DNA of 64,000 nucleotides. Origin: Gammaproteobacteria bacterium. GTDB lineage: Bacteria > Pseudomonadota > Gammaproteobacteria > Pseudomonadales > Azotimanducaceae. A model generated the notes under the pieces. It saw only the letters and a program-made list of their open reading frames with translations, was not told where the DNA came from and did no database searches. This document shows positions 58 through 60,103 of the stretch, piece after piece; position 1 is the stretch's first letter; each line of letters begins with the position of its first letter. The stretch is taken from the NCBI GenBank assembly GCA_009841615.1, contig VXLL01000029.1:62001-126000 (forward strand). The letters are read 5' to 3'. The position numbers were made by a program, and so were the translations under genes.

Positions 58-1854
58 CTATTCACTCAAAGAACTCTTTAACGTGTTAAGTTGCTCTGTC
101 GAGAGCGTATTAGTGAAGCTGTTAATCATCAAAAGCTCTCGTATCATATTCGACCTTATTTGTTCTGACGGTAGACTCCCCAAGTGCTCTAACAAAGACT
201 TTGGATCTCTAATCGCCCAAGTACTAGCCAGTCCATCGAAAAATGTTTGTTGAAATTCGTCAGACATGGTTGCGGATAACTCCATCACACGATCAATCTC
301 TCCTTGCTCCACCAAAATGACACCGACCCTGATCTGTGCTTCTTCTAAAGTTTTTTGATTACGCGCGCTCTCCAACATGGCGAGGCCTCGCTCTACATCC
401 ACTCGAGTAGTTTCCGCAATTACAAATGCTTCTACTCCAAATCCCCAACCATGATTTGGTTGTTTTAGGGCGAGCTCGAGCGCGAACGAGGAGTCTACAT
501 GGGCTATATTTCCCAGTATATCGCCAATAAATTGCGGGAGCAGCTGTGTGGCTAGTTCATCGGTTTGAATCCATTGCCATGTAGCAACGGGATCATGTTC
601 AACCCAATTGCGTATGAGATTTCCAACGACGACCTCTTTGGAGATCTTATCTTCGAGTAAGTGAAGCCAGTCAGGCACCAATTCGGGTGTTGTACTTCTC
701 ATGTTCAACAACGCTTCGTGCTTACTCCAGCTTTGCAAACTGTCGGGTATTTGACTCAGTGCTTCTAAAAGTGAGATAGGGTCGCTACGAAACCAACCGC
801 TTATGACGGATCGTTGCATCCGAAAGCGCTGGTCGCTCGATTCAACCACTTTTGCAACTTCGAGAGCTATTTGAGGATTCGTTTTTGCCCAGTCCGCGAA
901 TGCTTCAGCGAGCACTTGAAGGTCCGTTTCCTTAATCCACCCCGCGGCCTCAAGAACCAGCTGCGGGTTGGATTGGTTCAGTTCCTGCAATAGGCCGCTC
1001 ATAATTGCGATACGACTGCCGTCGCTTTTCAGCGATGAGTAGACCGATTCAATAGCACTTACACCTGATTCTTCGGTCCAAACTGTCGCAACGTGTGCTA
1101 GCAATTGGATTTGTGCTTGACTCAACGATTCAAATTTGTTGCCATACTCGCTCAATAGTTCCGTCCACGTGGCTTGGGGGTCATCGATGTCTGATCCGAT
1201 TTTGGCTAGCGCAATACTGTCTATAGCAGAGTCTTCATCACCAAACTGAGCCGCGATTTCAAGGAGTCGATCTTTGGGGATATTCTCACTGCCCCGCAAT
1301 ATTCCTCGCAACGCGCTCTCGCTTTGAAGTGTATCTATGGTGTGAGCTAGTGCAATCGCTTGATCCAAGTCTGCGATAGCAAGTTCCATAAATGCTGATT
1401 CGATCAGTGTCTGGCGTCGAGTTTCTGGGATTTGTTCTATTGAAGAAATAGCCGCAATCGGATTCAACAACGAAAGTCTGCGAATAACTGAGTCTTGAAT
1501 CTCGTCTCTCAGTGTTGTGGGTCTGAAGTTCTCAGCTAGCTTAAAGAAGTCGCCGTGTTCGTCGACACTAGCCGAATGCAGAAAGTCGTGTAGCGTCAAT
1601 GTTCGATGAAATGGTCCTTTGGACTTTAGTTCCTGTTCAATGCGTGAAACGTCTATTGGAGAACCATCTGAAGAGGTCGAATTTGGTAGCGTCACTGGAA
1701 GACCACGACCATCGACATTAGACTCGCCTAAGGAAGATACTTTCGCGTTTGAGTCATTAAAGACTAAGAACACGAAACCTAATACTGCGCCTAGGCCAAA
1801 TACAAAACCCACCAGTATAAAGATGGTGTTTTTGAGTAATCGGGTTGGAATCAT
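58..1854 (-). CDS. membrane-anchored alpha-solenoid protein, copy 1 (group A)
   Basis: A 598-residue protein read from ATG at 1854. A longer reading from TTG at 1884 adds ten residues rich in Arg and has no better ribosome site, so the ATG, which places the anchor near the N-terminus as in the paralogues, is preferred. One transmembrane segment lies at about residues 10-32, followed by a polar linker and helical hairpins whose loops read L-N-P-I-A-A, T-N-P-Q-I-A and H-D-P-V-A-T-W. The R-D-D-L-S box that most paralogues carry near residue 190 is replaced by S-E-N-I-P, while a D-D-P-Q-A-T-W-T-E-L-L segment follows as expected. The C-terminal cap is degenerate (L-S-T-E-Q-L-N-T-L). It is divergent from copy 2 across a gap of about 119 bp, which may hold both promoters. 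Function unknown; membership in the family is certain from the architecture. Confidence 0.85.
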   Translation of the reverse strand: MIPTRLLKNTIFILVGFVFGLGAVLGFVFLVFNDSNAKVSSLGESNVDGRGLPVTLPNSTSSDGSPIDVSRIEQELKSKGPFHRTLTLHDFLHSASVDEHGDFFKLAENFRPTTLRDEIQDSVIRRLSLLNPIAAISSIEQIPETRRQTLIESAFMELAIADLDQAIALAHTIDTLQSESALRGILRGSENIPKDRLLEIAAQFGDEDSAIDSIALAKIGSDIDDPQATWTELLSEYGNKFESLSQAQIQLLAHVATVWTEESGVSAIESVYSSLKSDGSRIAIMSGLLQELNQSNPQLVLEAAGWIKETDLQVLAEAFADWAKTNPQIALEVAKVVESSDQRFRMQRSVISGWFRSDPISLLEALSQIPDSLQSWSKHEALLNMRSTTPELVPDWLHLLEDKISKEVVVGNLIRNWVEHDPVATWQWIQTDELATQLLPQFIGDILGNIAHVDSSFALELALKQPNHGWGFGVEAFVIAETTRVDVERGLAMLESARNQKTLEEAQIRVGVILVEQGEIDRVMELSATMSDEFQQTFFDGLASTWAIRDPKSLLEHLGSLPSEQIRSNMIRELLMINSFTNTLSTEQLNTLKSSLSE

Positions 1855-1973
1855 GTTTACTTCAATGGTTCGCCGCCGCTGCAAATTTAATTGTAAGCGA
1901 CTGCTAGCTTAAGTGTTTCAATGTTGTTTTATAATAAAAAAAATTGTTGTATCCGAATTAACCGAACCCAAAT

Positions 1974-3761
1974 ATGCTGAGTCGTCCCCGTCGAGTCCTA
2001 ACTTGGTTTTGCCTGGGGATGGTGGGTCCTGCGATGTTGTGCGGAATCGGACTGTGGGCATACGGATTGTTCTGGACTAACAACGAGCAAGTCGTCGCAG
2101 ATTCGCCAGACAACGTTACTCCTGCAGGACGCCAGTCTCAATCAAAAGGTACTTTCGAGCATAAGACGTTTTACCCGACCGATCTCAAGGACCTCGCTAC
2201 CTTTACCGATGACTATTCGAGAGAGGTAGCTCTTCGAACACTACTATCTTCCTCGGATCAGCAACGCGTGATCTCGTTACTCGAGCAAGCTAAGGCGATT
2301 CGTCCCGATGAACGAAGAACAGCGACACAAATCCAAATTTTCCGTCGCTTCGCGGTTATTAATCCTGTGGAGGCGATGAAACACACTTTCGATATTGCAT
2401 GGAACCGACGCGAGCCTCTTGTTAATGCGATCTTTCTTGAGTGGGGAACCGCGGACTTAAATGCTGCTATCGCACACGCGAAAACTCTTGGTAGTGCGGA
2501 TCAACGCACTGCTTTGGTTGCGATTCTAAGAATACGCGACGATTTTTCAGAAGATCGTATTCAGGAACTCGCGCTTGAGTTCGGACACGAATCCGTCGGT
2601 AGCGACGTTCTGGTGCAGATTCAAATCGATCGTGCATTCAATGATCCACAATCTGCTTGGAACGCTCTTCTGGAAGATGCCCGACCTGATAATTTTCAAA
2701 TTCCTTCCCTCGCCACCATCCTCGAACTTTGGGTAGCCCGCGAAGGTTTCGATGTCGTTTTTGAAGCAATGGAATCGATACCCGAGATGGACTCCCCAAT
2801 GGGCATTCTCGATCCAATTCTTACACCGATCGCTCAAGATGATCCACGCCGAGCTTTCGAATTAGTCAATGAGTTTAAAGAAAATGCTCGCAGAGTGGCG
2901 GCTTTCCTAGTCGTGGGCGAGTGGGCAGAAACCGATCCAGCGGCAGCTTTTGACGCCGTATCCGAATTTGACGTTCGTCCGACGTATGTGAAAGAGAATT
3001 TAATGCAAAACATCGGCTATGCCTGGGCTGAGAATGCTCCGTACGAGGCGTTTTCAATCCTACCCAAATATTTGTCAGGTTATACTCTTCAATGGATACA
3101 GGGCAACGCTTTGCAACAAATTGTTCGGGAGTCCCCTGAAGATGCAGTGAACCTTCTGAACAATGTCCCGAATGGTGTGGCAGAACTGGGTGGGGCTCTT
3201 GTTGAGGAGTGGGCTTCTTCAGATGCTCGTTCCGCACTCAATTGGATAGGTTTACAGGAAGAAGCGCTACGCCCAGCTTTATTGCAGAGTGTCATGCCTG
3301 CGCTTGTGGAAAAGGATCCGGATTTAGCATTGAGCACCGCATTGAATCAATCGATTGCCGAAGGCCAATTGGGATTGGAGTACGAAGTCATTCGGATTCT
3401 AGCGCGGACCGATGTTCATCGAGCAACCGAAATGTTGCCTCAAGTCCGAGATCACGAAGACACCAAAAAAAGAGCATACTCTGAACTAGGCCGTGCTTTG
3501 GCCAATAAGTACGAATCAACGGCAGCAATTGAACTAGGCTCAGAACTACCAGAGTCTTTTCAGGATGACTACTTCCGAGAAATAATCAACGCAATCTATA
3601 ACACAGATCGAGTAGAACTGTATGAAATTCTAGATCTACTTCCTAAATCCAAGTATCAACAAGAAGCTGCCAGATATCTGATCTGGGAGACAGGCTTGGG
3701 TGCAGATGCTCATCGATACTTCACCGATGAACAACTAGAAAAAATTCGAAACTTCCAATAA
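1974..3761 (+). CDS. membrane-anchored alpha-solenoid protein, copy 2 (group A)
   Basis: A 595-residue protein starting at ATG 1974 with no clear Shine-Dalgarno sequence. The basic N-terminus (R-P-R-R) precedes a transmembrane segment at about residues 10-33. The helical region starts near residue 115. Family landmarks visible are L-E-W-G-T-A-D-L (155-162), R-D-D-F-S-E (188-193), N-D-P-Q-S-A-W-N-A-L-L (223-233), several W-A-x-x-D-P/A hairpins, G-L-E-Y-E-V-I, L-P-Q-V-R and the cap F-T-D-E-Q-L-E-K-I-R at the very end. The charge pattern suggests a cytoplasmic N-terminus and a periplasmic solenoid. It lies 105 bp upstream of copy 3 on the same strand, so the two may be cotranscribed. Function is unknown; it is a scaffold or binding-type fold rather than an enzyme as far as can be seen. 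Confidence 0.87.
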   Translation: MLSRPRRVLTWFCLGMVGPAMLCGIGLWAYGLFWTNNEQVVADSPDNVTPAGRQSQSKGTFEHKTFYPTDLKDLATFTDDYSREVALRTLLSSSDQQRVISLLEQAKAIRPDERRTATQIQIFRRFAVINPVEAMKHTFDIAWNRREPLVNAIFLEWGTADLNAAIAHAKTLGSADQRTALVAILRIRDDFSEDRIQELALEFGHESVGSDVLVQIQIDRAFNDPQSAWNALLEDARPDNFQIPSLATILELWVAREGFDVVFEAMESIPEMDSPMGILDPILTPIAQDDPRRAFELVNEFKENARRVAAFLVVGEWAETDPAAAFDAVSEFDVRPTYVKENLMQNIGYAWAENAPYEAFSILPKYLSGYTLQWIQGNALQQIVRESPEDAVNLLNNVPNGVAELGGALVEEWASSDARSALNWIGLQEEALRPALLQSVMPALVEKDPDLALSTALNQSIAEGQLGLEYEVIRILARTDVHRATEMLPQVRDHEDTKKRAYSELGRALANKYESTAAIELGSELPESFQDDYFREIINAIYNTDRVELYEILDLLPKSKYQQEAARYLIWETGLGADAHRYFTDEQLEKIRNFQ

Positions 3762-3866: not shown

Positions 3867-5711
3867 ATGACTAATCAAGACCGTAGAAACTCTGCGTTAC
3901 GTTTTCAACTTGTTCCCTATCTGATCGGAACAGGATTGTCCTTCGTGCTCTGCGTTGGGGCTCTAATTCTCTTCAATCCCTTCGACAATGAAGGAGTACG
4001 AACGACTTCGACCGCTGAAGAGAGTGCGTCAGATACACCCCACCATGTCGCACCCATAGCAGTCCCTGAGAACGATGAATCTAATCAAGGACCGCGGAGG
4101 TCTTTGAATCTAGCATCGATTGTCGAGATGCCAACCTTTTTTGAAAGTTCTCTAGCGCTCGACGACATTTTGAAAAATGCAAACTTACAGAGTTTAAAAA
4201 CTCTACTTGACGAGTCGCGAGATGTTCAAGGCGTTGAACGGCTGCAGTCGACACGAACTCAGATTTTTCGCAAATTTGCCACACTTGATCCAATCCAAGC
4301 TCTCTCTTACGCTGAATCATTTCCCAAAAACCAGTATGAACATTTCGCTTCTCTGATTTATCGTGAATGGTCCGTTATTGACCTTGATGACGCGCTGAAT
4401 TTTGCTGAACAACACGTTCCTAGTCTCAGTAGGGAGGGAAAGTCAACGGTTATTGAACAGATATTTCGAGCCGCGTGGGAGCTTTCTGACGACGCGAAGT
4501 TGCAAATAGCGGAACGGTTGCAAGTGAATCCCTACACCTCGACTTTCTTGCTAGAGAAGATTGAGAGGGACAAACCTCTCGATAACCCGATCGAAGCATG
4601 GAAGGAAGTGCTGAGCATTGAGAATTTTGGCGACGACGAACGATTTCAGCTCCAGCAAATCGGGATGGCTGTGATTGAAAAGGACGGATACTCCAAGTTT
4701 GCAGAACTGGCGAACTCTATTCAAGATCGTCGTACTCGCACTGACCTAATTGGCCGAGTTCTAGGCAATCGATTGGATACTGATGAAATTGGTGTCGTCT
4801 TTGAACACGCACTGCAACTGTTCCAAGAATCTGCACGTCCCGTTCTGTTTGAACTCGCTGGAAGATGGTGTTTCACGGATCCACTCGCAGCTTTGAACGC
4901 GATGACGAACGTCCCCGAGGATCGACTTAGAAAACGTTTGGAAGAACGTGTGATTAAATATTGGGTTGACCGAAGACCCATGGAAGTGCTAGCACAGTTG
5001 GATATGCTCCCAGTCGAATATAGAGAGGTCGTTTTTAGCGCGGGAATATGGTCGATGAGTGCTCTCCACCCGAAAGAAACCTCGGAATATCTCGACAAAA
5101 TATCTGATCCAGAAACCAAATGGAATGTCATGTGGAATATGCTTCAAAACTGGGCGGCTCGAGACATCGAGGAAGGATTCAAGTGGTTTTTGGACAACCC
5201 GGATCTTGATTTTCCGGCGGGACGTTCTCGGGAAACTTTAGTTTCGTCCCTTTTATTTCGCGTTACCTCAGAAAACGCTCCTGCCTTGTTTGAACTTGCT
5301 CTCGAGTATCCTACAGATGAATCAGAATCTGGTTGGGAAGGAAGAGTTATCGGTGCCCTAGCACGGACCGACATGGCGAAAGCTAAAGATATGCTTCCGC
5401 AAATACGAGAAGGACCGGGACGATTAAATGCGTATGTGATGATCGGACACGTGATTTTTAACCAAGATCAGAGTATGAACTCTGTAATCGAACTTACAGA
5501 AGAGCTTCCCGAAGAAGATCAAGCTAAGTTTTTCGGCCAATTTGTACCGAGATTGTCTCCACGAGTAGCCTACGAACAAATTGACAAACTCCCAACTCCT
5601 GAAGCGCAAGCTAAAGCTGCTTTCGGACTTATTCAGCGAGCCAAAGAGTCTTCAAACAACCCCTACACCGACGAACAGATCGAACATCTTGAGTCGTTTC
5701 TGACGGACTAG
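3867..5711 (+). CDS. membrane-anchored alpha-solenoid protein, copy 3 (group A)
   Basis: A 614-residue protein from ATG 3867. The transmembrane anchor is at about residues 14-36 after a basic N-terminus (D-R-R...R). The linker to about residue 75 is rich in Thr, Glu and Ser. The helical repeats include L-D-P-I-Q-A-L, T-D-P-L-A-A-L and W-A-A-R-D-I-E-E. The R-D-D box is missing and its position reads W-E-L-S-D-D-A-K; the following D-N-P-I-E-A-W-K-E-V-L segment is kept. The cap is Y-T-D-E-Q-I-E-H-L-E-S-F-L, only a few residues before the stop. Length and landmark spacing agree with copy 2, but the residues differ widely, so the duplication of these two is old. Function unknown. Confidence 0.87.
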   Translation: MTNQDRRNSALRFQLVPYLIGTGLSFVLCVGALILFNPFDNEGVRTTSTAEESASDTPHHVAPIAVPENDESNQGPRRSLNLASIVEMPTFFESSLALDDILKNANLQSLKTLLDESRDVQGVERLQSTRTQIFRKFATLDPIQALSYAESFPKNQYEHFASLIYREWSVIDLDDALNFAEQHVPSLSREGKSTVIEQIFRAAWELSDDAKLQIAERLQVNPYTSTFLLEKIERDKPLDNPIEAWKEVLSIENFGDDERFQLQQIGMAVIEKDGYSKFAELANSIQDRRTRTDLIGRVLGNRLDTDEIGVVFEHALQLFQESARPVLFELAGRWCFTDPLAALNAMTNVPEDRLRKRLEERVIKYWVDRRPMEVLAQLDMLPVEYREVVFSAGIWSMSALHPKETSEYLDKISDPETKWNVMWNMLQNWAARDIEEGFKWFLDNPDLDFPAGRSRETLVSSLLFRVTSENAPALFELALEYPTDESESGWEGRVIGALARTDMAKAKDMLPQIREGPGRLNAYVMIGHVIFNQDQSMNSVIELTEELPEEDQAKFFGQFVPRLSPRVAYEQIDKLPTPEAQAKAAFGLIQRAKESSNNPYTDEQIEHLESFLTD

Positions 5712-5954
5712 GAATGAACAGTACCTTAGCAAGAGTCTCCCAACACTCACCAGAAATCGGTCGCGCTGAGCATGTTCAGCTCTGGACACTAGTTTTCAAT
5801 AGCTTGTGAAAGGAGATATGTGATGGAGCTTGGTTTTACAGCAAATCCCAAAACAAACTGTTTGTCAAACGGAGGCAACTTCAGAGACTTCAGTGGAAGT
5901 CGAACAATACTTCGTGGTAAAACCGTGCGATAGTAACAATTCGTTGGAGATGTG

Positions 5955-7754
5955 ATGAATACACGAGGAAATTTATCGATGGGCTCTCAACGAAATTTCG
6001 TAATTGGAATCACTTTAGTAGTTGGAATAACCTTAGGGATCCTTGCGGTCATGGTTATCCAAAAATTGGGATCTTCGAATGATCAAACATCCGATGATGA
6101 TACGCAACTTGATTCCCATCAGTACTTGACAAAAAGTGTGGACAGTGGTCTGCTTGAAAATTCAGTTGAAGTGGGAAAATTTGAAGAAATTCTCCAACAT
6201 CGTAGCGTCTTTGACCAAATCACAGCACTTCGCATTAGCCTCTCGTTCGCTACCGAGGAAGAGTTGAAGGAGTGGTGGATTCAATCCCAAGAAATCGAGA
6301 GAAAGAGTCATCGAGAATCCTTACAGGATGTAATCGCGCGAAAACTGGCAACGATTAATCCGCAACATGCTCTTCAGTACATTAAAGAAGTAACAAAATT
6401 TCAATCAGAAGATCTGTTGAGAAGCGTGTTTGCTGAGTGGTCGGCTTTACAACTTGATGCTGCTGTCGAAGCAGCGGGCACACTGTCAGTTTATGAACGC
6501 AATGTCGCGCTTCAATCCATACTTGAAACTCGCGACGACTTGTCTGAAAGTGAACTCCACTCGATTGCTGCGCGACTTGATGGAGAACACACTCTTCTTC
6601 AGCTAGTGAGTGAAGCGAAGGCATCCGATAGCATCGCAAATCCTATGGAATCTTGGAACTTGTTGCTAAATGACGATGTCGACGATTCCCTACAAACGGA
6701 GGCTCTCGCGGTAGTCGCTATGGCATGGCGAGCAGAAGTTGGATTCGAAGTGCTTTTATCCATTGCCTCAGACATCGAGGACTTTTGGGATCAGCGGCGA
6801 TTGATTGACTTGATCGTGCAAGAGGATCCAGCCGGCGCGTTGGAATACGCCCAAGGATTGTCTCAGCGCGAACTGTCAGATTTGTCATCACAGGTCGTGG
6901 CAGCATGGGCTCGCATCGATGCACTAGCTGCTTTGGCTGCGGTCAACTCTATGGAGCAGAGTTTAGCGAATGTTAACCTTGAGAGCGTCATCGCTTCCGT
7001 ATGGGCGCAAACCAAACCTAACGAATTGATAGAAAATATTGAACAGATATCAGACGATCTTCGTCTGCGAACACTAGAGTCAGCTTTTTCGGCCATTTCT
7101 CGTCGAGACCCATTGGAAGCATTGGCCAAACTGAATTCTGTAGAGAATTTGGTAGTTAGTACGTCCAACATTGAAAAGTTTATTGTGATGTTTGGGTCTG
7201 ACAAAAATCCGGTTGCGACTACTGATTGGGTGATACGAAAGTATTCAGCAGACGATCCACAACGACGACGGTTGTTAGAGTATTCATTACTTCATCTTGC
7301 CCGCCAAGATCCCGAACGAGCGTTTGAACTCGCTCTAGCACAACCTACTCCAGACGGGGAACTAGGATTAGAATCGCGTGTTATCTACGCTATCACACAC
7401 GGGGGTGAGATAGAACTCGCGAAGAAGCTACTACCTCGAGTGAAAGAAGCACGTACAAAGCAATCTTCGTTTGCTTGGGTAGGACGAGCTATGGCTGCCA
7501 ATTTACAAACAGACGAAGCTTTGGAACTTGGAAAAGAACTAGAAGAATCCGAACGTCGTTTTTACTATTCTCGGGTATTGAATTCTTGGGCTAGCACTCA
7601 TCCCAAGAATCTACTTGAATCACTTGAAAGCTTACCATCAAGTGATCTCCGAACAGAAGCGGCAAGTGAGTTAATCCGGCAGCACGAATTTGAACCGGTT
7701 TTCACCGAAGAACAAGTCGACCTCGTTCACACATATTTAAACTCTGACGATTAG
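5955..7754 (+). CDS. membrane-anchored alpha-solenoid protein, copy 4 (group B)
   Basis: A 599-residue protein. ATG 5955 is chosen over the adjoining GTG 5952 because GGAG at 5946-5949 sits at a workable distance; a further ATG ten residues in is possible. Transmembrane segment at about 14-36 with the group B pattern G-I-T-L-G-I-L-A-V and Gln at its end. It then shows E-E-L-K-E-W-W-I-Q-S-Q-E-I-E-R, E-T-R-D-D-L-S-E, N-P-M-E-S-W-N-L-L-L-N-D-D-V-D-D and Q-D-P-E-R-A-F-E-L-A-L hairpins. The normally strict V-G-N-T-S motif reads V-V-S-T-S here. The cap is F-T-E-E-Q-V-D-L-V-H. Although on the left arm, it is much closer to the 37.8-60.1 kb block than to its neighbours copies 3 and 5, so it was moved or the block seeded from it. 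Confidence 0.88.
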   Translation: MNTRGNLSMGSQRNFVIGITLVVGITLGILAVMVIQKLGSSNDQTSDDDTQLDSHQYLTKSVDSGLLENSVEVGKFEEILQHRSVFDQITALRISLSFATEEELKEWWIQSQEIERKSHRESLQDVIARKLATINPQHALQYIKEVTKFQSEDLLRSVFAEWSALQLDAAVEAAGTLSVYERNVALQSILETRDDLSESELHSIAARLDGEHTLLQLVSEAKASDSIANPMESWNLLLNDDVDDSLQTEALAVVAMAWRAEVGFEVLLSIASDIEDFWDQRRLIDLIVQEDPAGALEYAQGLSQRELSDLSSQVVAAWARIDALAALAAVNSMEQSLANVNLESVIASVWAQTKPNELIENIEQISDDLRLRTLESAFSAISRRDPLEALAKLNSVENLVVSTSNIEKFIVMFGSDKNPVATTDWVIRKYSADDPQRRRLLEYSLLHLARQDPERAFELALAQPTPDGELGLESRVIYAITHGGEIELAKKLLPRVKEARTKQSSFAWVGRAMAANLQTDEALELGKELEESERRFYYSRVLNSWASTHPKNLLESLESLPSSDLRTEAASELIRQHEFEPVFTEEQVDLVHTYLNSDD

Positions 7755-14028: not shown

Positions 14029-14062
14029 ACGGAAACGAAATCACCTACAGAGAGCTTACTGC

Positions 14063-20493: not shown

Positions 20494-20576
20494 TATTCTG
20501 AGTCTCCGAGTCTACTAATTGAGAAGTATTTTGTCACTAAGTATTTGGTTCAGGTCGTTTAATAAAAGAATCAAGC

Positions 20577-41797: not shown

Positions 41798-42049
41798 GTT
41801 GCTACTCCAAATAGCGCATTCTCAATTATAAATCGAGATTTTGAGGTTTTAAAGAAGATTAAGAAACTTCGGTCAGGACGGTACTAGTGTTGACTCAAAA
41901 CTACCGAATCATGGAGTATGTTCGAACGTTGTTCATTCAACATACTATTGCAACTTTAGCTGAAACGAGCCTCTTACGTTCCAGCTTTGATCATACCAAG
42001 GTGATTATCTCAATCCGATGAACTTTGAATAACTCTCCCAGATGAGGTG

Positions 42050-43882: not shown

Positions 43883-43988
43883 AGTTCTGAACTAGTGATA
43901 GGCTCGGCTGATAGTAAGATGATGGAACGTTGCTCCCGGTGTTGTTCTCCACAGACAAATCTGTCAGTGCTCACTGAGTTAGTGTTAC

Positions 43989-45764: not shown

Positions 45765-45994
45765 CACTTCAGACTATTTCTCTTTGCCGTATATGCGCTG
45801 TTGGTGCTATGCTACCGTTGATTGACGTTATGCGGACCGAAAATGTTGTTGGAAATATTAGCAATCAACGTGAAGTGAGTTCCTTCTAGCGACCATTCAT
45901 ATCATGACACTCTGGATGAGTAAGAGTTTGAAACATTTTGGTAGATATGGATAGATTCTCTTGATCTAAATATTTCGTTCAAAGAAATTCTCTA

Positions 45995-47806: not shown

Positions 47807-48005
47807 TTTTTTTTTGCCATAGTTGCGATACTGGACCTTAGATACTGTTAATTGACTGTGTGAGGACAGAAAATAAGGACGGAAACAGTGGTAGTGTAAT
47901 ATAAATCGCCATTGTGTCGCGATCTTTTAAATCATGATACGTTGGCTAAACAAAAGGTTTCATCACGTTGGTGGACATGGATAAATTCGTTTGCAACGAG
48001 TATTA

Positions 48006-49862: not shown

Positions 49863-50011
49863 ATCAACCTCAGTTTTGCAGTGTCAACTCTAGTCTCAAA
49901 TATGAGCTCATATAAATAGACGGGTTTTCGTTAACCTCTACCCAATTCCTATCTGATCAAAGATTTCATTCACCTTCTCGTAGAGCTAGGCATAGGTCTC
50001 TCGTGACTCTC

Positions 50012-51871: not shown

Positions 51872-51939
51872 AGTTGTGCTGTTGGCTCTATTGTTCCCAT
51901 TCGACAATCTTTGATTAAAGACATATGACAAATTCTCTG

Positions 51940-53766
51940 TTAGTTTCCAAAGAGAATTCCTGAGCTTGCGTCTGAAGCCTCGTCGTCGGGGTTTATATAA
52001 GTTCTGACTTGTTCAATTTGCTCGTCAGTCAACAGAGGTCGGTATCTATTAACTCTCACTAGCTGTATTGCAGCAAGGGACTGGATACTACTTGACGGAA
52101 GACTTTCCAGAGTCTCAAACAGGTTTTTAGGGTTATTACTAGCCCAGTCGTTCAGAACTCGTTGATAATATTGACGTCTTTGATCGTCTTCGAAGTCTTT
52201 GCCAAGTTCCAAAGCCTCTTCTGTCTGCGACTCGGCTATCATCGCTGATCCGACTATGGTATAAGCACGTAGTCTAGTTTTTTCTTTTACTCGAGGTAAA
52301 AGCTTCTTCGCTAATTCAACATCACCATCTGCGGATATTTCATCAATAACCCAGTAATCCAACTCAATACCCTCACTACGAGTGGGTTGAGCTATCGCTA
52401 CTTCGAAGGCTTGTACTGGATCCTGTCGTGCCCAACGGGGCATAATGCTCTCCAATAGGTCATGTCGTTGTGGGTCATCTTCAGCAAAGTTTTTGATAAC
52501 CCATTCAGCTGCAACCGCGGGCTCTTGATAAGACCATTGAAATACTATAGTGTCTAGTATTGAAGAAGTGTTACCAACATAGCTTTCTACAGAGTTCATT
52601 TTTGCAATTGCTTCCATTGGATTTTTGCGGGCAATTTGCCAAAACGCGGACTCCAACTTACCTAATCGTAACTCCTCCGAAATCGTTCCGATATTTTCGA
52701 TCAATTCAATCGGGTTCGTATACGACCATGTTGAGGCGACTGAATTTTCAAGATATGACGCCATAGAGGCAGGCGTATATGTCAATGCAGCTGCCAAAGC
52801 AGCTTGAGCATCTGTTCTCGTCCATTCGTTCACAATGACCATTGCTATGTACTTTTGTTCGTTTTCGTCGAGTATGCTACGAGTGAAGGCTAAAGCACCA
52901 GCAAGATCAAATCGGGCGATTGCGCGCACTAACTCAAATCTCATATTCGGTAGGTCAGTGTAAATGCGCGAAAGCACTGCAAATCCATCCTTCTCACGCC
53001 ACGCCTCAGCAATTTTGGCAAACGACTCTTTTTGGAGCGAATTGTCTACGTCGTCATCGAGCATAATGTTCCAAGATTTCGCGGGTTCCTCGATACTTTG
53101 GGCCGCCAGTTGATCACTGGTTAACTTGAGGAGAATTTCTTCGCCCTCAAGTTCCCTCGCAATCGAACGAAGTTCACTGTCGGGCAGGTCGTCGCGGGAT
53201 TCAAGAATGGCTTGCAGTGCGACGATGCGTCGCGAGTCCACAAGACTGGCAGCAGCTTTTACAGCATCCTCTAATTGTGAAACTGCCCACTCGCTGAAAA
53301 CGGTCGTCAAAAGTGCATTCGATTGAAAGATTGATACTTCATCGACGTACCGTAGAGCTTGTTGCGGATTTATCGCTGTCAGATTATGAAGAATGACGTG
53401 CTGTGCAATGTTGCGATGACTCGCTCTTTCAATATTTTTAGATTGCTTCCACCACTCCTTCAGTTCTTGCTCATTGCTTTGGGAGAGGGTGTTGTATAGT
53501 ACTTTGTATTGTTCGGCAGTGCTATGTTGGTTGAAGATTCCTTCAAATTTTTCAACTACAACTGGACTCTCGGATGAATTGTAGTCGCCGTTTTTGATCG
53601 AGTCTTGTTGGAGATCGCTTTGCGCGAAATCATAGTCTGCACGACTATTTAGAGGATTGAAATTTTGGATCGCAACAACTACCAACATTCCCAATACCAG
53701 CCCACTCCCTAATGAGATTCCAACCAAAGAAATTTGTTTGAACTTTGTCGAAGGTTGTGTGCTCAT
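51940..53766 (-). CDS. membrane-anchored alpha-solenoid protein, copy 17 (group B)
   Basis: A 608-residue protein from ATG 53766. Anchor about 12-34 with many small residues (G-I-S-L-G-S-G-L-V-L-G). E-L-K-E-W-W-K-Q-S-K-N-I-E-R, E-S-R-D-D-L-P-D, E-P-A-K-S-W-N-I-M-L-D-D-D-V-D-N, V-G-N-T-S-S-I-L, G-I-E-L-D-Y-W-V-I, A-K-K-L-L-P-R-V are present. The cap L-T-D-E-Q-I-E-Q-V-R-T-Y-I is followed by a Ser/Gly-rich tail ending F-G-N. In the middle it reads R-F-D-L-A-G-A-L-A-F-T-R where siblings have D-P. Upstream lies a 364 bp gap and then the dead copy. Confidence 0.88.
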   Translation of the reverse strand: MSTQPSTKFKQISLVGISLGSGLVLGMLVVVAIQNFNPLNSRADYDFAQSDLQQDSIKNGDYNSSESPVVVEKFEGIFNQHSTAEQYKVLYNTLSQSNEQELKEWWKQSKNIERASHRNIAQHVILHNLTAINPQQALRYVDEVSIFQSNALLTTVFSEWAVSQLEDAVKAAASLVDSRRIVALQAILESRDDLPDSELRSIARELEGEEILLKLTSDQLAAQSIEEPAKSWNIMLDDDVDNSLQKESFAKIAEAWREKDGFAVLSRIYTDLPNMRFELVRAIARFDLAGALAFTRSILDENEQKYIAMVIVNEWTRTDAQAALAAALTYTPASMASYLENSVASTWSYTNPIELIENIGTISEELRLGKLESAFWQIARKNPMEAIAKMNSVESYVGNTSSILDTIVFQWSYQEPAVAAEWVIKNFAEDDPQRHDLLESIMPRWARQDPVQAFEVAIAQPTRSEGIELDYWVIDEISADGDVELAKKLLPRVKEKTRLRAYTIVGSAMIAESQTEEALELGKDFEDDQRRQYYQRVLNDWASNNPKNLFETLESLPSSSIQSLAAIQLVRVNRYRPLLTDEQIEQVRTYINPDDEASDASSGILFGN

Positions 53767-54130
53767 TGTTACTCAGTGGCTACTCCTCTAAATTCTTCTT
53801 TGATTATATGGTCTGCATGTTGCGCCTACTTGACGGTTGTTAGTCGATACACAGATCGACCTGAGACTACATGTGTTTGGACTTTAGTCTGATTAATTGG
53901 GAAATATGGCCCTGCTATCGCGAATAAACGAACTCTAACATCAACAACGGTAACGAAGACAATCGTGTATTAGTGTTATTCCATCCACGAATCGGAGCAA
54001 TTTTTCGGTAGTTTGAGATACTAGAAGCCGAGGATTCTGGTCGACTACAGTTGGTGCGGTCCTTTGTTCGATCTCGCAGAACTATTCTATTAGATGAACG
54101 AAGGGCATGTGTCTCTTCCTCAGTATAGAT
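53767..54130. other. 364 bp spacer between copy 17 and the dead copy
   Basis: No gene, tRNA or clear hairpin is seen. It presumably carries the promoter of copy 17 at its left edge. It is the longest gap in the block. Confidence 0.35.
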
Positions 54131-54455
54131 CTATCTGCTCTCAACGCTTTTTACGAAAGCCTCGTCGTCTGAATTCAAAAACGTTTTCGCACGTTCAATC
54201 TGTTCGTCGTTCAATACCGGTTCGTACTGGTTCTGCGTTATGAATTGTCTTGCCGCGGTCGACTTGAGTCCGCTCGTTGGAAAATCTTCAAGCGACTCGT
54301 ATAGGTTCTTGGGAGAATCACTCGCTTTATTGCATTTACGTGCTCATCTTTTCAAATTGAGCGTTAATGGATTTGATCGGGTTGTCACGAAACGAGACTA
54401 TAGAAGCAACTCCAAGGGAGATTCGCTTCAGATTCGGAATAGACCCTAGGCGATT
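54131..54455 (-). pseudogene. wrecked alpha-solenoid gene (copy 18)
   Basis: From about 54334 down to the TAG at 54131-54133 the minus strand reads as the intact end of a group B protein: P-K-N-L-Y-E-S-L-E-D-F-P, then N-Q-Y-E-P-V-L-N-D-E-Q-I-E-R-A-K-T-F-L and E-S-R. Upstream of this, 54345-54452 still matches an inner repeat (the DNA of S-E-x-L-R-L-x-x-L-E-S-A-F and R-D-N-P-I-K-S-I), but with frameshifts and stops, and the roughly 200 codons between are gone. The N-terminal half and the anchor are missing altogether. It directly follows copy 19, so an unequal crossover or deletion between neighbours is the likely cause. Confidence 0.8.
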
Positions 54456-54458
54456 GAA

Positions 54459-56279
54459 TTATCTGTTTTCATATTTTTCTAATGAAGACTGGTGGCTAGA
54501 AATTAACAGCGTTCTGGCGTGTGAAATTTGTTCTTCGGTGAGTGATGGTTCGTATCTATTCTTCATTATTAACTGAAGCGCCGCCCATGATTTGAGATGG
54601 TTTGTAGACAAATCGTCAAGAGAATCATATAAAACTCTAGGTTCATACTGCGCCCAATGGTTCAAAATTTCGTAGTAGTAATGCAATTGGTTCGTTTCCG
54701 GCAATTCTTCACCGAGTTCCAAGGCGACACTATATTGTCCTTGGGCTACCATTTCCTGTCCGACCACCGCGTAGGCTTCGTGAGTTTGAAGTACCTTTAC
54801 TCTCGTTAGAAACTTCTTCGCTACGTCAAAATCACCTTCATGAGCTATTCTTCTAATCACCAACGACTCTAACTTAATCCCCATACTCGTAGACGGGTTC
54901 GCGGATGCAATTTCAAAGGAACGATCTGGATCCTTAGGAGCCAAAAAGTGTAATACCGTAGCCAACAGTAGGTGTCGGTGCTGGTCGTCGGGCGAGTAGT
55001 TACTTAAAACCCAGTCCATTGCAGTATCAGGTTGCTGACGAGCCCAAGAATTCACAATGCGCTGTACGATTGAAGAAGCATTTGCGACAAATTTCTCTAC
55101 TACATTTAGTTTTTCAATTGCTTCCAAGGGGTCTTGATCGGCAATTTCAGAAAATGCTTTCTCCAACGTTTCTATACGAACCTCCTCTGATAGTGTTTCG
55201 ATACTTTCGATTACTTCGTAGGGTTTCGTTTGTGCCCAAATTCTCGCGATCTGAAGTTCAAGGTTTGAAGATAGAGACTCAAACGTAGAGACAGCGGCCA
55301 GTGCCGTTTGCGCATCCGTTCTGGCCCATGCTCGAGCAATTGTAGAAGCTAAAAAGCTTCTTTCGTTTTCGACATCTAATCCACGAGTGTAGTCTAAAGC
55401 ACCATGAAAATCCAATTGGGCAATCGTACTCACTAATCGATATTTAGCCCCCAAATCGTCGATTTCAGAGTGATAAATCTTCGAAAGTACTTCAAGACCA
55501 ATTTGTTCGTGCCAAGCTTCTGCGACCTTGGTTAGAGAATCAAGTTGTAGATAGTCGGTTACGTCGTCATTGAGCAAAATCTCCCAGCTTTCTTTCGGCT
55601 CAGCCGTGCTCATGAACACGGACGCGTCGCTAACTAGCTTAAGAAAAGTTTCTTCCCCTTCAAGTTGTATAGCAATTGTGCGAAGCCTACTGTCTGGTAG
55701 GTCGTCTCGAGTTTCAAGGATTGCTTCAAGAGCGACACGACGCTGCGAGCTCGATAAAGTATTAGCAGCCTTGATTGCTTCATCGAGTTTTTGAAGCGAC
55801 CACTCACTAAAGACACTCCGTATTGGCTCTTCTGATTGGAATACTGATATTTCTTCAATGTATGTAAGGGCTATTTGGGGGTTTATCGCGGTCAAATGCC
55901 TCAGTATGCCATCTTGGGCGATCTCGCGATGGCTATCGCGCTCGATTTTTTGCGACTGAATCCACCAGTCTCCCAACTCTTCTTCTGAAGCAGAAGATAA
56001 GATGGAGTATAGAGCTTTGTTTTGTTCAATGACATTACGATGGTGAAAGACTTCCACCAATCGTTCTGTTACCGTAGATTCAGAACTTTCAGTGCTTTTC
56101 GTTGAAGTTTGTTGGCTTTCGCTTCGAGCAACGTCTTGTGAAGACTGTTCGTTTTGAGGCTTTAGGTGCTGGATTAAAAAAACACCAAGTACTCCCAGTG
56201 TCAATCCTACCGCAAAGGACACTCCAATTAAAACATTTCGCGTGAAAATACTTGAAGATTGCCCACTCGTCGTTGCCAT
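54459..56279 (-). CDS. membrane-anchored alpha-solenoid protein, copy 19 (group B)
   Basis: A 606-residue protein from ATG 56279 (M-A-T-T-S-G). Anchor about 16-37 (F-A-V-G-L-T-L-G-V-L-G-V). E-E-L-G-D-W-W-I-Q-S-Q-K-I-E-R, E-T-R-D-D-L-P-D, E-P-K-E-S-W-E-I-L-L-N-D-D-V-T-D. The V-G-N-T-S motif is V-A-N-A-S-S-I-V, as in the direction of copies 20 and 21 (T-S/D-S-I-V). Hairpins D-Q-D-P-L-E-A-I and P-K-D-P-D-R-S-F-E-I-A. The cap L-T-E-E-Q-I-S-H-A-R-T-L-L is intact. Copy 20 begins 85 bp upstream of it on the same strand. Confidence 0.88.
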   Translation of the reverse strand: MATTSGQSSSIFTRNVLIGVSFAVGLTLGVLGVFLIQHLKPQNEQSSQDVARSESQQTSTKSTESSESTVTERLVEVFHHRNVIEQNKALYSILSSASEEELGDWWIQSQKIERDSHREIAQDGILRHLTAINPQIALTYIEEISVFQSEEPIRSVFSEWSLQKLDEAIKAANTLSSSQRRVALEAILETRDDLPDSRLRTIAIQLEGEETFLKLVSDASVFMSTAEPKESWEILLNDDVTDYLQLDSLTKVAEAWHEQIGLEVLSKIYHSEIDDLGAKYRLVSTIAQLDFHGALDYTRGLDVENERSFLASTIARAWARTDAQTALAAVSTFESLSSNLELQIARIWAQTKPYEVIESIETLSEEVRIETLEKAFSEIADQDPLEAIEKLNVVEKFVANASSIVQRIVNSWARQQPDTAMDWVLSNYSPDDQHRHLLLATVLHFLAPKDPDRSFEIASANPSTSMGIKLESLVIRRIAHEGDFDVAKKFLTRVKVLQTHEAYAVVGQEMVAQGQYSVALELGEELPETNQLHYYYEILNHWAQYEPRVLYDSLDDLSTNHLKSWAALQLIMKNRYEPSLTEEQISHARTLLISSHQSSLEKYENR

Positions 56280-56364
56280 GCTGCTATTCCCAAAGAATTC
56301 TCTTCGATTATATAACGAACCGACATGGCTTTTAAAGACGATGTGAGATTAAGATTCAGACCAC

Positions 56365-58170
56365 CTACTCATCGGTTATCACGAATGTTTCTGCACGTTC
56401 AATCTGATCATCGGTCAATTCGGGTGAGCGCTTGTTACGGCTGATCAAAAACGTAGCAGCGAGAGACTTCAGTTCACTCGTCGGTAAATCGTCGAGGTAC
56501 CCGTATAGACCTTTGGGATCAACTGTAGCCCAATTAGCCATCATTCCGAAATAGTAGCCACTCTGTGGTTCTCCGTCTAAATCTCTTCCTAGTGCTAAGG
56601 CTTCTTCTGTTTGTCCCTGTCTGATCATTTCCCAAGATATTGTCGAGTAAATTCGAGACTTGGAAGCTTCGGGGACGCGAGGAATAAGTTCTTTCATGAG
56701 TTCGAGGTTGCCTGAATCTAATATTTCTCCAACGACCTCTGTATCTAATCTTATTAAACCCTCGCCAGTAGTATGTTCTATCGCGAGTTCAAATGCGTTG
56801 ACGGGCTCTTCGCGAGCTAAGCGCGGTAAAGCACTTAGCAACAAGACCCGATGTTGCGGGTCCTCTTGGGTGTAGTGTTCTAAAACCCAGTTAGTTGCAG
56901 CTCTAGGTTCTTTATCAGACCATTCTCGCACAATCGAGTGAACGATCGAATCAGTGGTACCAACGAATTTCTCGACTAGACTCAAGCTAGCAAGAGCATC
57001 CAACGGATCTTGCGTTGAGATCCGGGCAAACGCTGACTCTAAAGTACGTAGTCGAAGCTCTTCTGATATTACTTCAATATTTTTAATCACTTCGTTCGGT
57101 TTGGTGCTCGCCCAAATCTCCGATAATTGACGTTCGAGATTTGAAGCCAAAGAAGCTGGTTTAAAAGTCGAGACTGCTAACAGAGCTGCTTGTGCATCCG
57201 ATCTAGCCCAGGCACGAACGATGATTCTGGATAAGTCTGATTTCTCTCTTTCGTCTGTTAGTGCTCGCGTATAGTTCAAAGCAAGCGGTAGATCCATTTC
57301 GGCAACTGTGCGCAACAATTGTTGTTTAAGTTGGTAGTCGTCAGTGTTCGTGCTGTAGATTTTCGAGAGTACTTCAAAGCCAATTTGTTCGAACCACGCC
57401 TCAGCTACTTTTACAAGAGACTCTGTTTGCAGGTAGTCTTCTACCTCGTCATTGAGCAATGTTTCCCATGATTCTTGAGGGTCTGCGATGTTTTGAGATG
57501 CCTTCGAATCACTAGCTAACTTAAGAAATACCTCTTCATGTTCGAGTCGAATGGCGATTTCGTGTCTTCTAGCATCTGTCAGGTCGTCACGGGTATTCAG
57601 GATAGCTTCAAGAGCAACTTGCCGTTGGTCTCGTGATAGAGTTTTGGCGGTCTCAATTGCTTTGTCTAGTTGTGAGATTGACCACTCACTAAACAAACTC
57701 TTGACCATCAAGTCCGTTTCAAAAATCGAAACATCGTCGATTAGGTGGAGCGCGTCATGTGGATTTATCGTCGCAAATTTTCGGAGTATCGCATGCTGTA
57801 GTTTTTTACGATGACTCTGTCTCTCTACTTCTTGAGATTGCATCCACAGGTCTTTCAACTCTTGCGCCGATGCTGACGAAAGCGAATCGAAGATCGCTGT
57901 TTGTTGATCAAAAATACTCGGTTGACTAAAGATTTCTGGAATTTGTATGGGATCATGTGGGCTTGCTGCTGAACTGTCGGAAGCAGTCTCTGAAGAAATT
58001 TGACGACGATCACTTTCTACATTACCTTGCGTCGGAAACTCACTCTGAGATCCAAAATTCTGCAATGAAATAACGCCGACTATCCCCAAAGTTAGACCTA
58101 TTGTGAAAGTTAGTCCCAAAACAACAATGCGTTGCAGTCCTGTTTTAGCTTTCTTACTTGGATTTGTCAT
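56365..58170 (-). CDS. membrane-anchored alpha-solenoid protein, copy 20 (group B)
   Basis: A 601-residue protein from ATG 58170; TTG 58182 would add four residues. N-terminus strongly basic (K-K-A-K...R) before the anchor at about 15-37 (F-T-I-G-L-T-L-G-I-V-G-V). It is closest to copy 21: both have the altered motif D-L-W-M/I-Q-S-Q instead of E-W-W-I-Q-S-Q, N-T-R-D-D-L-T, H-E-E-x-F-L-K and S-I-V-H-S-I-V-R-E-W-S. V-G-N-T-S reads V-G-T-T-D. The R-V-P-E-A-S-K region and the cap L-T-D-D-Q-I-E-R-A-E-T-F-V are kept, and it stops soon after the cap. Confidence 0.88.
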   Translation of the reverse strand: MTNPSKKAKTGLQRIVVLGLTFTIGLTLGIVGVISLQNFGSQSEFPTQGNVESDRRQISSETASDSSAASPHDPIQIPEIFSQPSIFDQQTAIFDSLSSASAQELKDLWMQSQEVERQSHRKKLQHAILRKFATINPHDALHLIDDVSIFETDLMVKSLFSEWSISQLDKAIETAKTLSRDQRQVALEAILNTRDDLTDARRHEIAIRLEHEEVFLKLASDSKASQNIADPQESWETLLNDEVEDYLQTESLVKVAEAWFEQIGFEVLSKIYSTNTDDYQLKQQLLRTVAEMDLPLALNYTRALTDEREKSDLSRIIVRAWARSDAQAALLAVSTFKPASLASNLERQLSEIWASTKPNEVIKNIEVISEELRLRTLESAFARISTQDPLDALASLSLVEKFVGTTDSIVHSIVREWSDKEPRAATNWVLEHYTQEDPQHRVLLLSALPRLAREEPVNAFELAIEHTTGEGLIRLDTEVVGEILDSGNLELMKELIPRVPEASKSRIYSTISWEMIRQGQTEEALALGRDLDGEPQSGYYFGMMANWATVDPKGLYGYLDDLPTSELKSLAATFLISRNKRSPELTDDQIERAETFVITDE

Positions 58171-58297
58171 ATCTCGACTCAAATTGGGTTCCTAATGTAT
58201 ACATGTCTACAGTGCAGCGACGGACAATGGCACCGAATCTCAATATATCGCTGTCTCGGAAGACATCGTAAGCTCTTCAGTAACGTTTATAGCCTGT

Positions 58298-60103
58298 CTA
58301 GTCATCGGACTCTACAAAAGTTTGAGCATGTTTGATTTGCTCATCGTTAAATATGGGGGTGCGAATGTTGCGTCTTATCAACTCCTCCGCAGCAAGCGAC
58401 TTGAGTTCGTCTGTGGGTAAGTCGTCAAGTTGCTCGTATAGGTTCTTAGCACTTTCCCGTGCCCACACACTCATGACTTGACGGTAGTAGCTAGATTGCT
58501 GTTCTTCGTTCAAATTTTTTCCTAGTTCCAACGCTTCTTCCGTTTGTGCGTGTTTGACCAACGCCTCACCATAATGTATGTACGCAAAAGGTTTCGAATC
58601 TTCGTGTACTCGTGGAATTAGCTTCTTCGCTAGTTCAAGATTACCAGCATATGTGATCCGGTGAAACACGTCCAATTCTAATCCGCCCCATCGTCCCCCA
58701 GTTGAGTGTTCTAACGCAATTTCAAACGCGGCTTCGGGCTCTACGGGAGCCAGGTAACTCAAAACACTATCCAACATCGTTAGGCGATGTGGGTCTTCTC
58801 GCTCGTAGTTTTCTAGCACCCAATTAGTCGCTTCTCGAGGTTCTGTATAAGACCATTCGCGCACGATGCTGTGTACTATCGACGAAGTATTCGCAACAAG
58901 ATTCTCGACAGAACTAACTTTAGCGAGAGCACTCTTAGGGTCTTGAGATGCAAGTTGTGCAAATGCTGATTCAAGAGTATCCAGCCGATGTTCATCCGTT
59001 ACCGCATCAATGTTCTCTATCACTTCATTAGGTCGGATACTTGCCCAAACCATAGTGATTTGAACCTCAAGAGCGGATGCGATAGAAGTGGGTTCAAAGG
59101 TTGAGACAGCTAAAAGGGCGGCTAGCGCATCCGATCTAGCCCATACGCGAACAATGGTCCTCGACAAACTTGACTTTTCACTCTCGTCAGTTAGTTCGCG
59201 GGTATGGTTCAACGCACCTAGTGGGTCCTCTTCGGCAATCTTACGAATTAATTGTTGTCTTAGTTGATCGTCGTCTATGTCCGCGCTATAAATGTTTGAG
59301 AGTACTTTAAAACCAATTTGTTCGCGCCAGGCCTCGGCTACTTTTAAGAGAGACTCTGCCTGTAGGTAGTCTGCTACCTCGTCGGTGAGTAAAGTGTCCC
59401 ACGAACTATGAGGTTCCTCGAGGCTCAATAGCGCTTTTGTGTCGCTGACCATCTTTAGAAATGTCTCTTCGTGTTCGAGTTGTATCGCAATCTCACGGTG
59501 TTTGCTTTCCGTCAAGTCGTCTCGGGTGTTAAGGATAGCCATTAACGCGATATTCCTTCGAGGACGAGAAAGAGCAATTGCGGCTTCGATTGCTTCTTCT
59601 AAATTTAAGAAAGACCACTCGCTGAAAAGACTCTTCAACAACGCGTCAGTTTGAAAAATCGACACTTCGTCAATGTACCCGAGTGCCTTCGCTGGACTTA
59701 CAGTAGCAAGCTTGCTGAGTATTCCATGTTGTACTATTTCACGATGACTCTCTCTGACAATTTTTTGAGATTGAATCCACAAGTCTTTTAAATCTTCCGT
59801 CGTTGCCGACGATAGAGTAGAGTAAAGTGACTTTTGTTGGTCAAATACACTCGGTTGATTTAAGATGTCCTGAATTTGCCCGATTTCGCCCGAGCCAATT
59901 GTGGGATCACTTTCAAGCCTAGAAGTCGTCGATTCGTTTACACCATTCTGAGCAACATCTTCAACTGTGTGTTCATTTTGAGGACCGAGTTTTTGGATTG
60001 CAAGTACGACGAACACTCCTAGAGCCAACCCGACTGTGAATGTCAGTCCAATATAAAGTGTGCGTTTTAGATTTGTTGGAGAATTCTCGCTTGTAGTTGT
60101 CAT
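58298..60103 (-). CDS. membrane-anchored alpha-solenoid protein, copy 21 (group B)
   Basis: A 601-residue protein from ATG 60103, the first gene of the minus-strand block. Anchor about 15-37. Shares with copy 20 the D-L-W-I-Q-S-Q and N-T-R-D-D-L-T motifs, Y-L-Q-A/T-E-S-L-x-K-V-A-E-A-W and the I-V-H-S-I-V-R-E-W-S stretch; the two are a recent pair. E-P-H-S-S-W-D-T-L-L-T-D-E-V-A-D. The cap is F-N-D-E-Q-I-K-H-A-Q-T-F-V, very close to the stop. Its upstream gap of about 262 bp is shared with the divergent gene at 60366 and may hold the promoter that drives the start of the block. Confidence 0.88.
   Translation of the reverse strand: MTTTSENSPTNLKRTLYIGLTFTVGLALGVFVVLAIQKLGPQNEHTVEDVAQNGVNESTTSRLESDPTIGSGEIGQIQDILNQPSVFDQQKSLYSTLSSATTEDLKDLWIQSQKIVRESHREIVQHGILSKLATVSPAKALGYIDEVSIFQTDALLKSLFSEWSFLNLEEAIEAAIALSRPRRNIALMAILNTRDDLTESKHREIAIQLEHEETFLKMVSDTKALLSLEEPHSSWDTLLTDEVADYLQAESLLKVAEAWREQIGFKVLSNIYSADIDDDQLRQQLIRKIAEEDPLGALNHTRELTDESEKSSLSRTIVRVWARSDALAALLAVSTFEPTSIASALEVQITMVWASIRPNEVIENIDAVTDEHRLDTLESAFAQLASQDPKSALAKVSSVENLVANTSSIVHSIVREWSYTEPREATNWVLENYEREDPHRLTMLDSVLSYLAPVEPEAAFEIALEHSTGGRWGGLELDVFHRITYAGNLELAKKLIPRVHEDSKPFAYIHYGEALVKHAQTEEALELGKNLNEEQQSSYYRQVMSVWARESAKNLYEQLDDLPTDELKSLAAEELIRRNIRTPIFNDEQIKHAQTFVESDD

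Follow-up and report, generated by a model that had tools for sequence, protein, structure and literature searches.

The 64-kb stretch analyzed here (64,000 nucleotides of contig VXLL01000029.1 of a gammaproteobacterium, hereafter the window) carries 20 intact open reading frames (ORFs) of 591–646 amino acids (aa) that belong to one family of predicted membrane-anchored, alpha-helical solenoid proteins. The 20 ORFs sum to 36,648 bp, or 57% of the window, and all are found where the original prediction had placed its 20 intact genes of 591–646 codons and about 36 kb. Every pair among them is homologous by BLASTP (E ≤ 2e-11), with aligned identities of 18–58%. A close subclade, 40–58% identical, comprises 13 of the 20, namely the copies at 5952 and 30493 and the eleven lying from 37811 to 60103, and the remaining seven are more distant (18–30% identity). 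The family alignment (A3) takes in 18 of the 20 window copies.

At the left end of the window a minus-strand copy (58–1884, 608 aa) is followed by plus-strand copies at 1974–3761 (595 aa) and 3867–5711 (614 aa) and by a plus-strand member of the close subclade (5952–7754, 600 aa) that is 42–48% identical to the minus-strand members. Two tandem pairs lie further along the plus strand: 9109–10956 (615 aa) with 11025–12965 (646 aa), and 26688–28532 (614 aa) with 28602–30377 (591 aa). The copy at 26688 is the only one in the window with a second, borderline hydrophobic stretch, and its partner at 28602 is among the most divergent of the window. The minus strand carries the subclade member at 30493–32328 (611 aa) and the long run of eleven, at 37811–39634 (607 aa), 39956–41797 (613 aa), 42050–43882 (610 aa), 43989–45767 (592 aa), 45995–47806 (603 aa), 48006–49862 (618 aa), 50012–51931 (639 aa), 51940–53766 (608 aa), 54459–56279 (606 aa), 56365–58182 (605 aa) and 58298–60103 (601 aa). 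In G013, another genome of the same genus, the reciprocal best matches of the copies at 37811, 56365 and 58298 are 90%, 92% and 83% identical. Within this run, at 54134–54334 on the minus strand, stands what had been described as a dead copy; a remnant does exist there (tblastn E 1.2e-16), but only the C-terminal ~60 residues are left of it. The corresponding array of G013 has a stop-ridden remnant (G013:C43:26732–27234) between neighbors matching those of the window remnant, and thus the loss of this copy may be common to both genomes.

A hydrophobic segment lies near the N-terminus of all 20 window copies, and in each of them the side preceding the segment carries more positive charge, as the positive-inside rule demands. 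Genome-wide, 105 of the 107 copies scored have such a segment, and the charge rule is satisfied in 100 of those 105. In a few of 29 N-termini that we viewed, the segment could by eye be a cleavable signal. A short, variable polar linker joins the putative anchor to the solenoid. The AlphaFold2 model of the copy at 58298–60103 has a helix at residues 11–38 (low confidence) and a continuous solenoid from residue 76 to 597, with a mean pLDDT of 85 and 417 of 601 residues at 90 or above, and the divergent copy at 28602–30377 gives a similar continuous solenoid at a mean pLDDT of 77. The anchor, polar linker and continuous solenoid of the original prediction are thus borne out, with the segment in all 20 copies and both models continuous, whereas its 13–14 hairpins fall short of the 15–16 seen in the two models. 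The period of hydrophobicity is 31–32 residues, and 16 units could be laid out, 14 of them 30–34 residues long. As for the sequence motif that had been put forward, W-A-x-x-D-P-x-x-A-L, its literal form is rare (WAxxDPxxAL occurs only four times, and WAxxDP 14 times, in the 20 proteins), but a looser version, W[ASTGC]xx[DENS][PALV]xx[AST], occurs 1.74 times per protein in 108 copies of the genome vs. 0.05 in shuffled sequences. The T-D-D-Q-I-E-type cap, thought to be present in all copies, was recognized in 18 of the 20 with a pattern defined by us, leaving two without it.

Cysteine is nearly absent from the part of the protein that follows the hydrophobic segment, with 42 in 62,373 residues for the copies of the genome and five in all in the 20 window copies. 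Counted over whole proteins, the family has 91 cysteines in 66,369 residues vs. 493 in 43,661 for 105 non-family ORFs of at least 200 aa from the same loci. As cysteine is depleted and the charge rule points the same way, the body of the solenoid would lie in the periplasm, a placement for which this evidence is strong but indirect.

No model in Pfam or NCBIfam reaches its cut-off for the six window copies scanned. For the family consensus no Pfam model does so either: the best, ELYS, scores 24.7 bits where 28.8 is the cut-off, and PPR (15.5 of 25 bits), TPR_19 (13.8 of 25) and HEAT_2 (13.3 of 27.7) likewise fall below theirs. PADLOC gave no match for 4 of the 20 window copies, and neither did PHROGs for the four copies searched. 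A profile of the family run against PDB sequences found designed PPR proteins (best E 1.9e-12), mainly through one C-terminal unit, the best stretch being residues 471–531. A literature search that reached few subscription papers returned no description of the family. By the tests made, the family is TPR-like (tetratricopeptide repeat-like) in kind and outside any named family; it is undescribed in the searches made, and its fold class is already known. The earlier view that no named family has this architecture therefore stands for the copies tested against Pfam, NCBIfam, PHROGs and PADLOC, and the two outcomes set beforehand as speaking against it, a profile hit to a characterized family with a known role and a structure model lacking a continuous solenoid, did not occur.

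The window gives only a partial picture of the family: its 20 copies are there as described, but the range that had been noted misses the genome-wide scale. In the genome of the window (G000; 2,657,221 bp, 92% complete, 38 contigs) a search with one copy returned 115 matches on 13 contigs. We recovered 108 family ORFs of at least 500 aa and two shorter ones, and the 108 sum to 199,431 bp, or 7.5% of the genome. The figure of 108 is a lower bound, as copies were recovered from stretches around search matches and not from whole genomes, and it depends on the ORF cut, with 108 obtained from ORFs of at least 60 aa (110 hits) and 107 (>500 aa) from ORFs of at least 40 aa (111 hits). These 108 copies form 37 runs with gaps below 700 bp, the largest of 13, 11, 10 and 7 genes. 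As 18 of the runs are pairs and nine are single genes, the copies do not always come in arrays, which the original prediction had proposed to check. Neighboring family genes are co-directional in 68 of 71 pairs, with a median gap of 99 bp, and in most of the 36 tandem pairs the two members have diverged deeply (mean identity 28%). We considered whether the tandem pairs consist of two fixed subfamilies, as heterodimers might, and do not claim it: identities of first to first members (22.9%), second to second (23.0%) and first to second (22.6%) reveal a slight tendency, reached by 1 of 500 permutations, that is too little to build on. Full-length copies (at least 500 aa) and shorter family ORFs number 56 and 47, respectively, in G013, and 55 and 22 in G007, a third genome of the genus; the many shorter ORFs suggest that the family is in decay in these two genomes, if they do not stem from genes broken in assembly.

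Across the genus, 16 of 18 genomes searched have a match at E ≤ 0.001, the counts per genome being matched stretches and not genes. Ten species have high counts, with 115 matches in G000, 95 in G013, 78 in G011, 75 in G007, 63 in G005, 51 in G002, 48 in G008, and at least 60, 45 and 38 in G014, G003 and G010. The eight low-copy species have 0–6, and three of these eight are only 77–87% complete, so their counts may be low. A one-gene tree (the gene being UvrB, as judged by eye) sets the ten high-copy species apart from the others across a branch that has support 82/84 and is not starred; three rows of this tree have long branches. Even among close relatives copy number differs more than 2-fold, with 48–115 matches at 95–97% identity in one housekeeping gene. 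When one protein was searched against a further 19 genomes from the same bacterial family and 21 from the order, weak hits came from five, all within that bacterial family, and a profile search of those five found 1–4 matched stretches each, in one or two open frames of 541–713 aa, most of which by eye begin hydrophobic. Draws of 369 Gammaproteobacteria and of 398 genomes from the phylum, with three candidates scored per genome, each yielded four genomes with a match, the genome of the window included. Three relatives from outside the bacterial family that we inspected have, by eye, a hydrophobic segment and then a polar linker at the N-terminus. The relatives found thus come from the same bacterial family and, in rare cases, from other Gammaproteobacteria; the link to Verrucomicrobia and Planctomycetes that the original prediction had suggested remains conjectural. 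As distant copies are few and one species group has many, the family looks like an old, rare, low-copy gene that was amplified in one group of species. One single-copy relative (G228:C6, 697 aa) is located near a sigma-70-type factor and a VIT/VWA protein. A viral or plasmid origin was considered and set aside: a profile of 13 copies gave no confirmed relative in IMG/VR, and one copy gave no plasmid match.

The relatives that have names are metagenome-assembled genomes (MAGs), namely OMG group bacterium Plut_88873, Pseudomonadales bacterium CO36404bin_7 and Gammaproteobacteria bacterium SB0662_bin_2, SB0666_bin_18 and SB0677_bin_6. We take Plut to stand for the coral Porites lutea, and names of the form SB06xx presumably denote sponge metagenomes. 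Sponge reads are said to match Nitrospira sp. SB0677 in one report (PMC12203066). Judged mostly by these names, the high-copy clade is probably associated with animals, either sponges or corals.

Comparison of G000 with G013 gave 47 reciprocal best pairs, of which two, with identities below 50%, were excluded from the estimation of dN/dS, the ratio of nonsynonymous to synonymous substitution rates. The 45 pairs used have dN/dS of 0.15–0.53, with a median of 0.22 vs. 0.15 for controls (30 non-family pairs from the same loci, 28 of which gave a value; p 0.007). The copies are under purifying selection, somewhat weaker than that on neighboring genes, and it follows from this selection that they do something. 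Three arrays, of 8, 9 and 10 pairs, are fully colinear between the two genomes, with identities inside them of 51–92%. Synonymous divergence (dS) exceeds 0.7 in 21 of 45 family pairs vs. 2 of 28 controls and is below 0.15 in four family pairs, and along some genes divergence is mosaic in windows. In 42 of 636 windows some paralogue surpasses the reciprocal best match in closeness by more than 5 points, 16 of the 42 coming from the two pairs below 50% identity. These windows, like the copy tree and the tandem-pair and five-position analyses, draw on 55 full-length copies of G013, 54 of G007 and 46 reciprocal pairs. The uneven divergence of orthologues would best be explained by exchange with diverged alleles through recombination; alternatively, hidden paralogy with loss may account for it. 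In a FastTree tree of 244 copies, which takes in four of the six G017 copies and four G016 rows (one of them partial) and whose deep supports were not examined, 46 minimal clades mix G000 with G013 and 17 mix G000 with G007. So many species-mixing clades imply that many of the duplications are older than the species.

The paralogues do not vary evenly over their surface. With positions picked by polarity alone in 14 of the 16 units (the other two were omitted, as the start of their second helix is not clear), the 108 paralogues of G000 have a mean entropy at polar positions of 3.35 bits in helix A (n = 131) vs. 2.77 in helix B (n = 75), or 2.94 when the first two residues of helix B are removed (n = 49); the excess of helix A is significant against either set (one-sided Mann-Whitney, 6e-13 and 4e-9, respectively). 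A narrower set of five positions, picked after the profile had been seen, gives 3.40 bits for helix A, 2.94 for helix B and 2.19 for the core. On the exposed face, helix B is acidic (33% D+E), and helix A has a mixed composition that is richer in hydrophobic and aromatic residues. The concave side of TPR-like solenoids is formed by helix A. If the same side is assumed here by analogy, the pattern would fit an old specialization of grooves that is now maintained.

We tentatively favor, with somewhat less than even confidence, the reading that these proteins are inner-membrane-tethered periplasmic adaptors or scaffolds with diversified grooves, amplified in one probably animal-associated clade. 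The genes would encode inner-membrane proteins of type II topology, in which one N-terminal helix serves as the anchor, a polar linker comes next and a curved rod of 15–16 TPR-like hairpins stands in the periplasm. Each paralogue would probably use the exposed side of its A helices to bind one or more partners of its own, acting as a scaffold or adaptor in a position and topology like those of YfgM, here multiplied into a set with different partners. Presumably a rare low-copy gene was amplified by tandem duplication in one clade of the genus, its copies diverged on the presumed binding face and were then retained under purifying selection, and diverged alleles may have been exchanged between strains by recombination. 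A bolder form of this reading, which we consider possible but rather unlikely, is that the roughly 100 tethered solenoids, each with its own groove, make up a germline-encoded periplasmic recognition repertoire that captures competitor toxins, host antimicrobial peptides or phage parts, or sorts exported clients. We know of no bacterial compartment in which scaffold proteins are diversified on a comparable scale. The question raised is what there is in the cell envelope of a bacterium that probably lives with animals that would require a hundred different binding rods.

Several observations weigh against tethered adaptors with diversified grooves. A second hydrophobic stretch in 3 of 107 copies and a lipobox-like pattern in 8 of 107 suggest that some copies may be other than simple anchors. 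Foldseek against the PDB found generic large eukaryotic solenoids (SF3B, CAND1, karyopherin), with TM-scores by query of 0.09–0.38 among the 50 matches listed; as these scores are low, we do not claim homology to any of the fold matches. The single-copy relatives G228, G409 and G401 have no neighbor in common among the 10, 6 and 2 surrounding ORFs scanned, and the proposed habitat leans mostly on the presumed meanings of MAG names. With regard to the groove, orthologues of at least 70% identity (24 pairs) have substitution of 0.187 in helix A vs. 0.175 in helix B (p 0.17), those of 50–70% identity (21 pairs) have 0.485 vs. 0.429 (p 0.017), and the five-position set gives 0.196 vs. 0.196 and 0.479 vs. 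0.466. The excess of helix A being weak or absent between orthologues, the face gives little indication that it is still diversifying, and the acidic composition of helix B may give part of the contrast seen between paralogues.

Other accounts fit parts of these data. If each periplasmic solenoid neutralized a different toxin from neighboring bacteria, the family would be an orphan immunity repertoire, comparable to the immunity-gene arrays of other bacteria, for which the inferred periplasmic site, the arrays of diverged paralogues and the colinear alleles of very uneven divergence can all be cited, and Sel1-repeat periplasmic proteins reportedly give immunity to phospholipases. We nevertheless consider this improbable. 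No toxin was recognized beside the copies, with 10 of the 18 non-family ORFs of the window covered by the Pfam scan, and PADLOC matched none of the four copies tested against it. Immunity proteins are usually small, and those described here are of ~600 residues. The sheath protein VipA of the type VI secretion system was found in 0 of 18 genomes of the genus, so the copies would not be self-immunity genes of that system in particular. Symbiosis factors, solenoids that reach host cells and modulate phagocytosis or signaling in the manner of eukaryotic-like repeat proteins, seem to us about equally improbable. Here the expansion of a repeat protein in a clade whose named members, judged mostly by those names, seem to come from animal metagenomes is suggestive, and ankyrin repeats are present in 17 of the 18 genomes of the genus. 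According to one study, sponge MAGs are enriched in ankyrin, leucine-rich, TPR and HEAT repeat proteins, and repeat proteins of sponge microbes gave phagocytosis evasion when expressed in E. coli (PMC8163846). On the other hand, the predicted anchor would keep most copies in the inner membrane, and ankyrin matches are equally common in low-copy (0–44 matches) and high-copy species (3–40), which means that the number of solenoids does not track that marker.

A mostly non-adaptive birth and death, in which a duplication-prone gene drifted to high copy with little functional differentiation, we judge slightly less probable again. It would accommodate the more than 2-fold difference in copy number among close relatives, the shorter family ORFs (47 in G013 and 22 in G007) and a dN/dS above that of the controls (0.22 vs. 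0.15, p 0.007), and drift is reported to explain part of the expansion of chlamydial families (PMC4209131). However, dN/dS is well under 1 in all 45 pairs, 108 of the 110 family ORFs of G000 are at least 500 aa long, the members of tandem pairs are mostly deeply diverged, and three arrays have stayed colinear between G000 and G013. A switching, antigen-like repertoire, in which a single expressed copy takes up variation from the remaining ones by gene conversion, would account for the size of the family and for the mosaic divergence of some genes, but we regard it as very improbable: G000 has almost no fragments (2 of 110), none of its 108 genes has a long homopolymer tract, a paralogue is closer by more than 5 points in just 42 of 636 windows, and the inferred location is inside the envelope. 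Tethered periplasmic adaptors thus remain the reading that we prefer, and the abundance of the family in one species group next to its near-absence in congeners offers a natural comparison.

The remainder of the window holds several other genes. Paralogous lipoprotein-like proteins are encoded at 16003–17868, 22667–24511 and 24674–26569, and the one tested (16003) has an AhpC-TSA/thioredoxin end; this is by far the largest non-family cluster in the stretches examined, with 11 members in G000, 6 in G013 and 4 in G007. An IS1595-like transposase, split over two ORFs at 13264–15596, adjoins an N6/N4 DNA methylase and an ORF that weakly matches a type II restriction enzyme. A 935-aa protein at 32847–35654 contains five stretches of the bacterial PH domain bPH_2, and a 466-aa protein at 61838–63238 has a weak match, below cut-off, to a ParB N-terminal domain. 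Three tandem paralogues of ~215 aa lie at 19849–22121, with signal-like starts by eye, and the one scanned has no Pfam match. Elsewhere in the genome, three very large tandem paralogous ORFs of ~1340–1750 aa were seen at G000:C1:145574–159916, the one shown having a signal-like start, and four tandem paralogues of ~305 aa at G000:C17:67–3812, one start being nucleotidyltransferase-like by eye. No tRNA was detected in the window, and no Rfam family reached its gathering score there. Promoter and terminator patterns in 37500–56500 are below shuffled expectation (21 vs. 27.1 and 8 vs. 16.6, respectively), and no common motif is evident by eye upstream of the 20 window genes.

The family has in common with the TPR, PPR and HEAT superfamilies the tandem helical hairpin, and one C-terminal unit resembles PPR/TPR. 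TPRs are repeats of ~34 residues that form helix-turn-helix hairpins in a continuous solenoid; the two models have continuous hairpins, and the period in the family is 31–32 residues. We point out that 7.5% of a 2.66-Mb genome is given over to one family that the protein-family libraries searched have missed.

The closest parallel in position is YfgM, which we take to be encoded by one gene per genome where the present family has more than 100. YfgM is a TPR protein of the inner membrane that partners PpiD at the SecYEG translocon, with type II topology, an N-terminal membrane segment and a partner-binding TPR domain that accounts for almost all of the periplasmic part (PMC9643414); on the side of the family these features are predicted, and partner binding is proposed. 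By prediction, the family shares with YfgM a single N-terminal membrane segment in N-in/C-out orientation. YfgM has four TPR motifs, whereas the proteins described here have 15–16 units of ~32 residues and no Pfam TPR model over cut-off, and the YfgM family model was not among the Pfam or NCBIfam matches listed for six copies at E up to 10.

With the eukaryotic-like repeat proteins of sponge symbionts the family shares an abundance of repeat proteins in animal-associated marine bacteria, and it differs in being predicted to be membrane-anchored and periplasm-facing and in being missed by the Pfam models, which that study used for its repeat proteins (PMC8163846). As Pfam models miss the family, a Pfam-based survey of repeat proteins in symbionts would overlook it. 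With respect to its history, the family resembles the 25 DUF1703 paralogues of Cardinium cCpun, which are reported to be old and diverged, with recombination (PMC6387759), and the F-box and BTB families of Parachlamydiaceae, for which birth-and-death evolution is reported (PMC4209131). Those proteins are of other classes, nuclease-like in Cardinium and ubiquitination-related in Parachlamydiaceae, and the family described here outnumbers the 25 of Cardinium.

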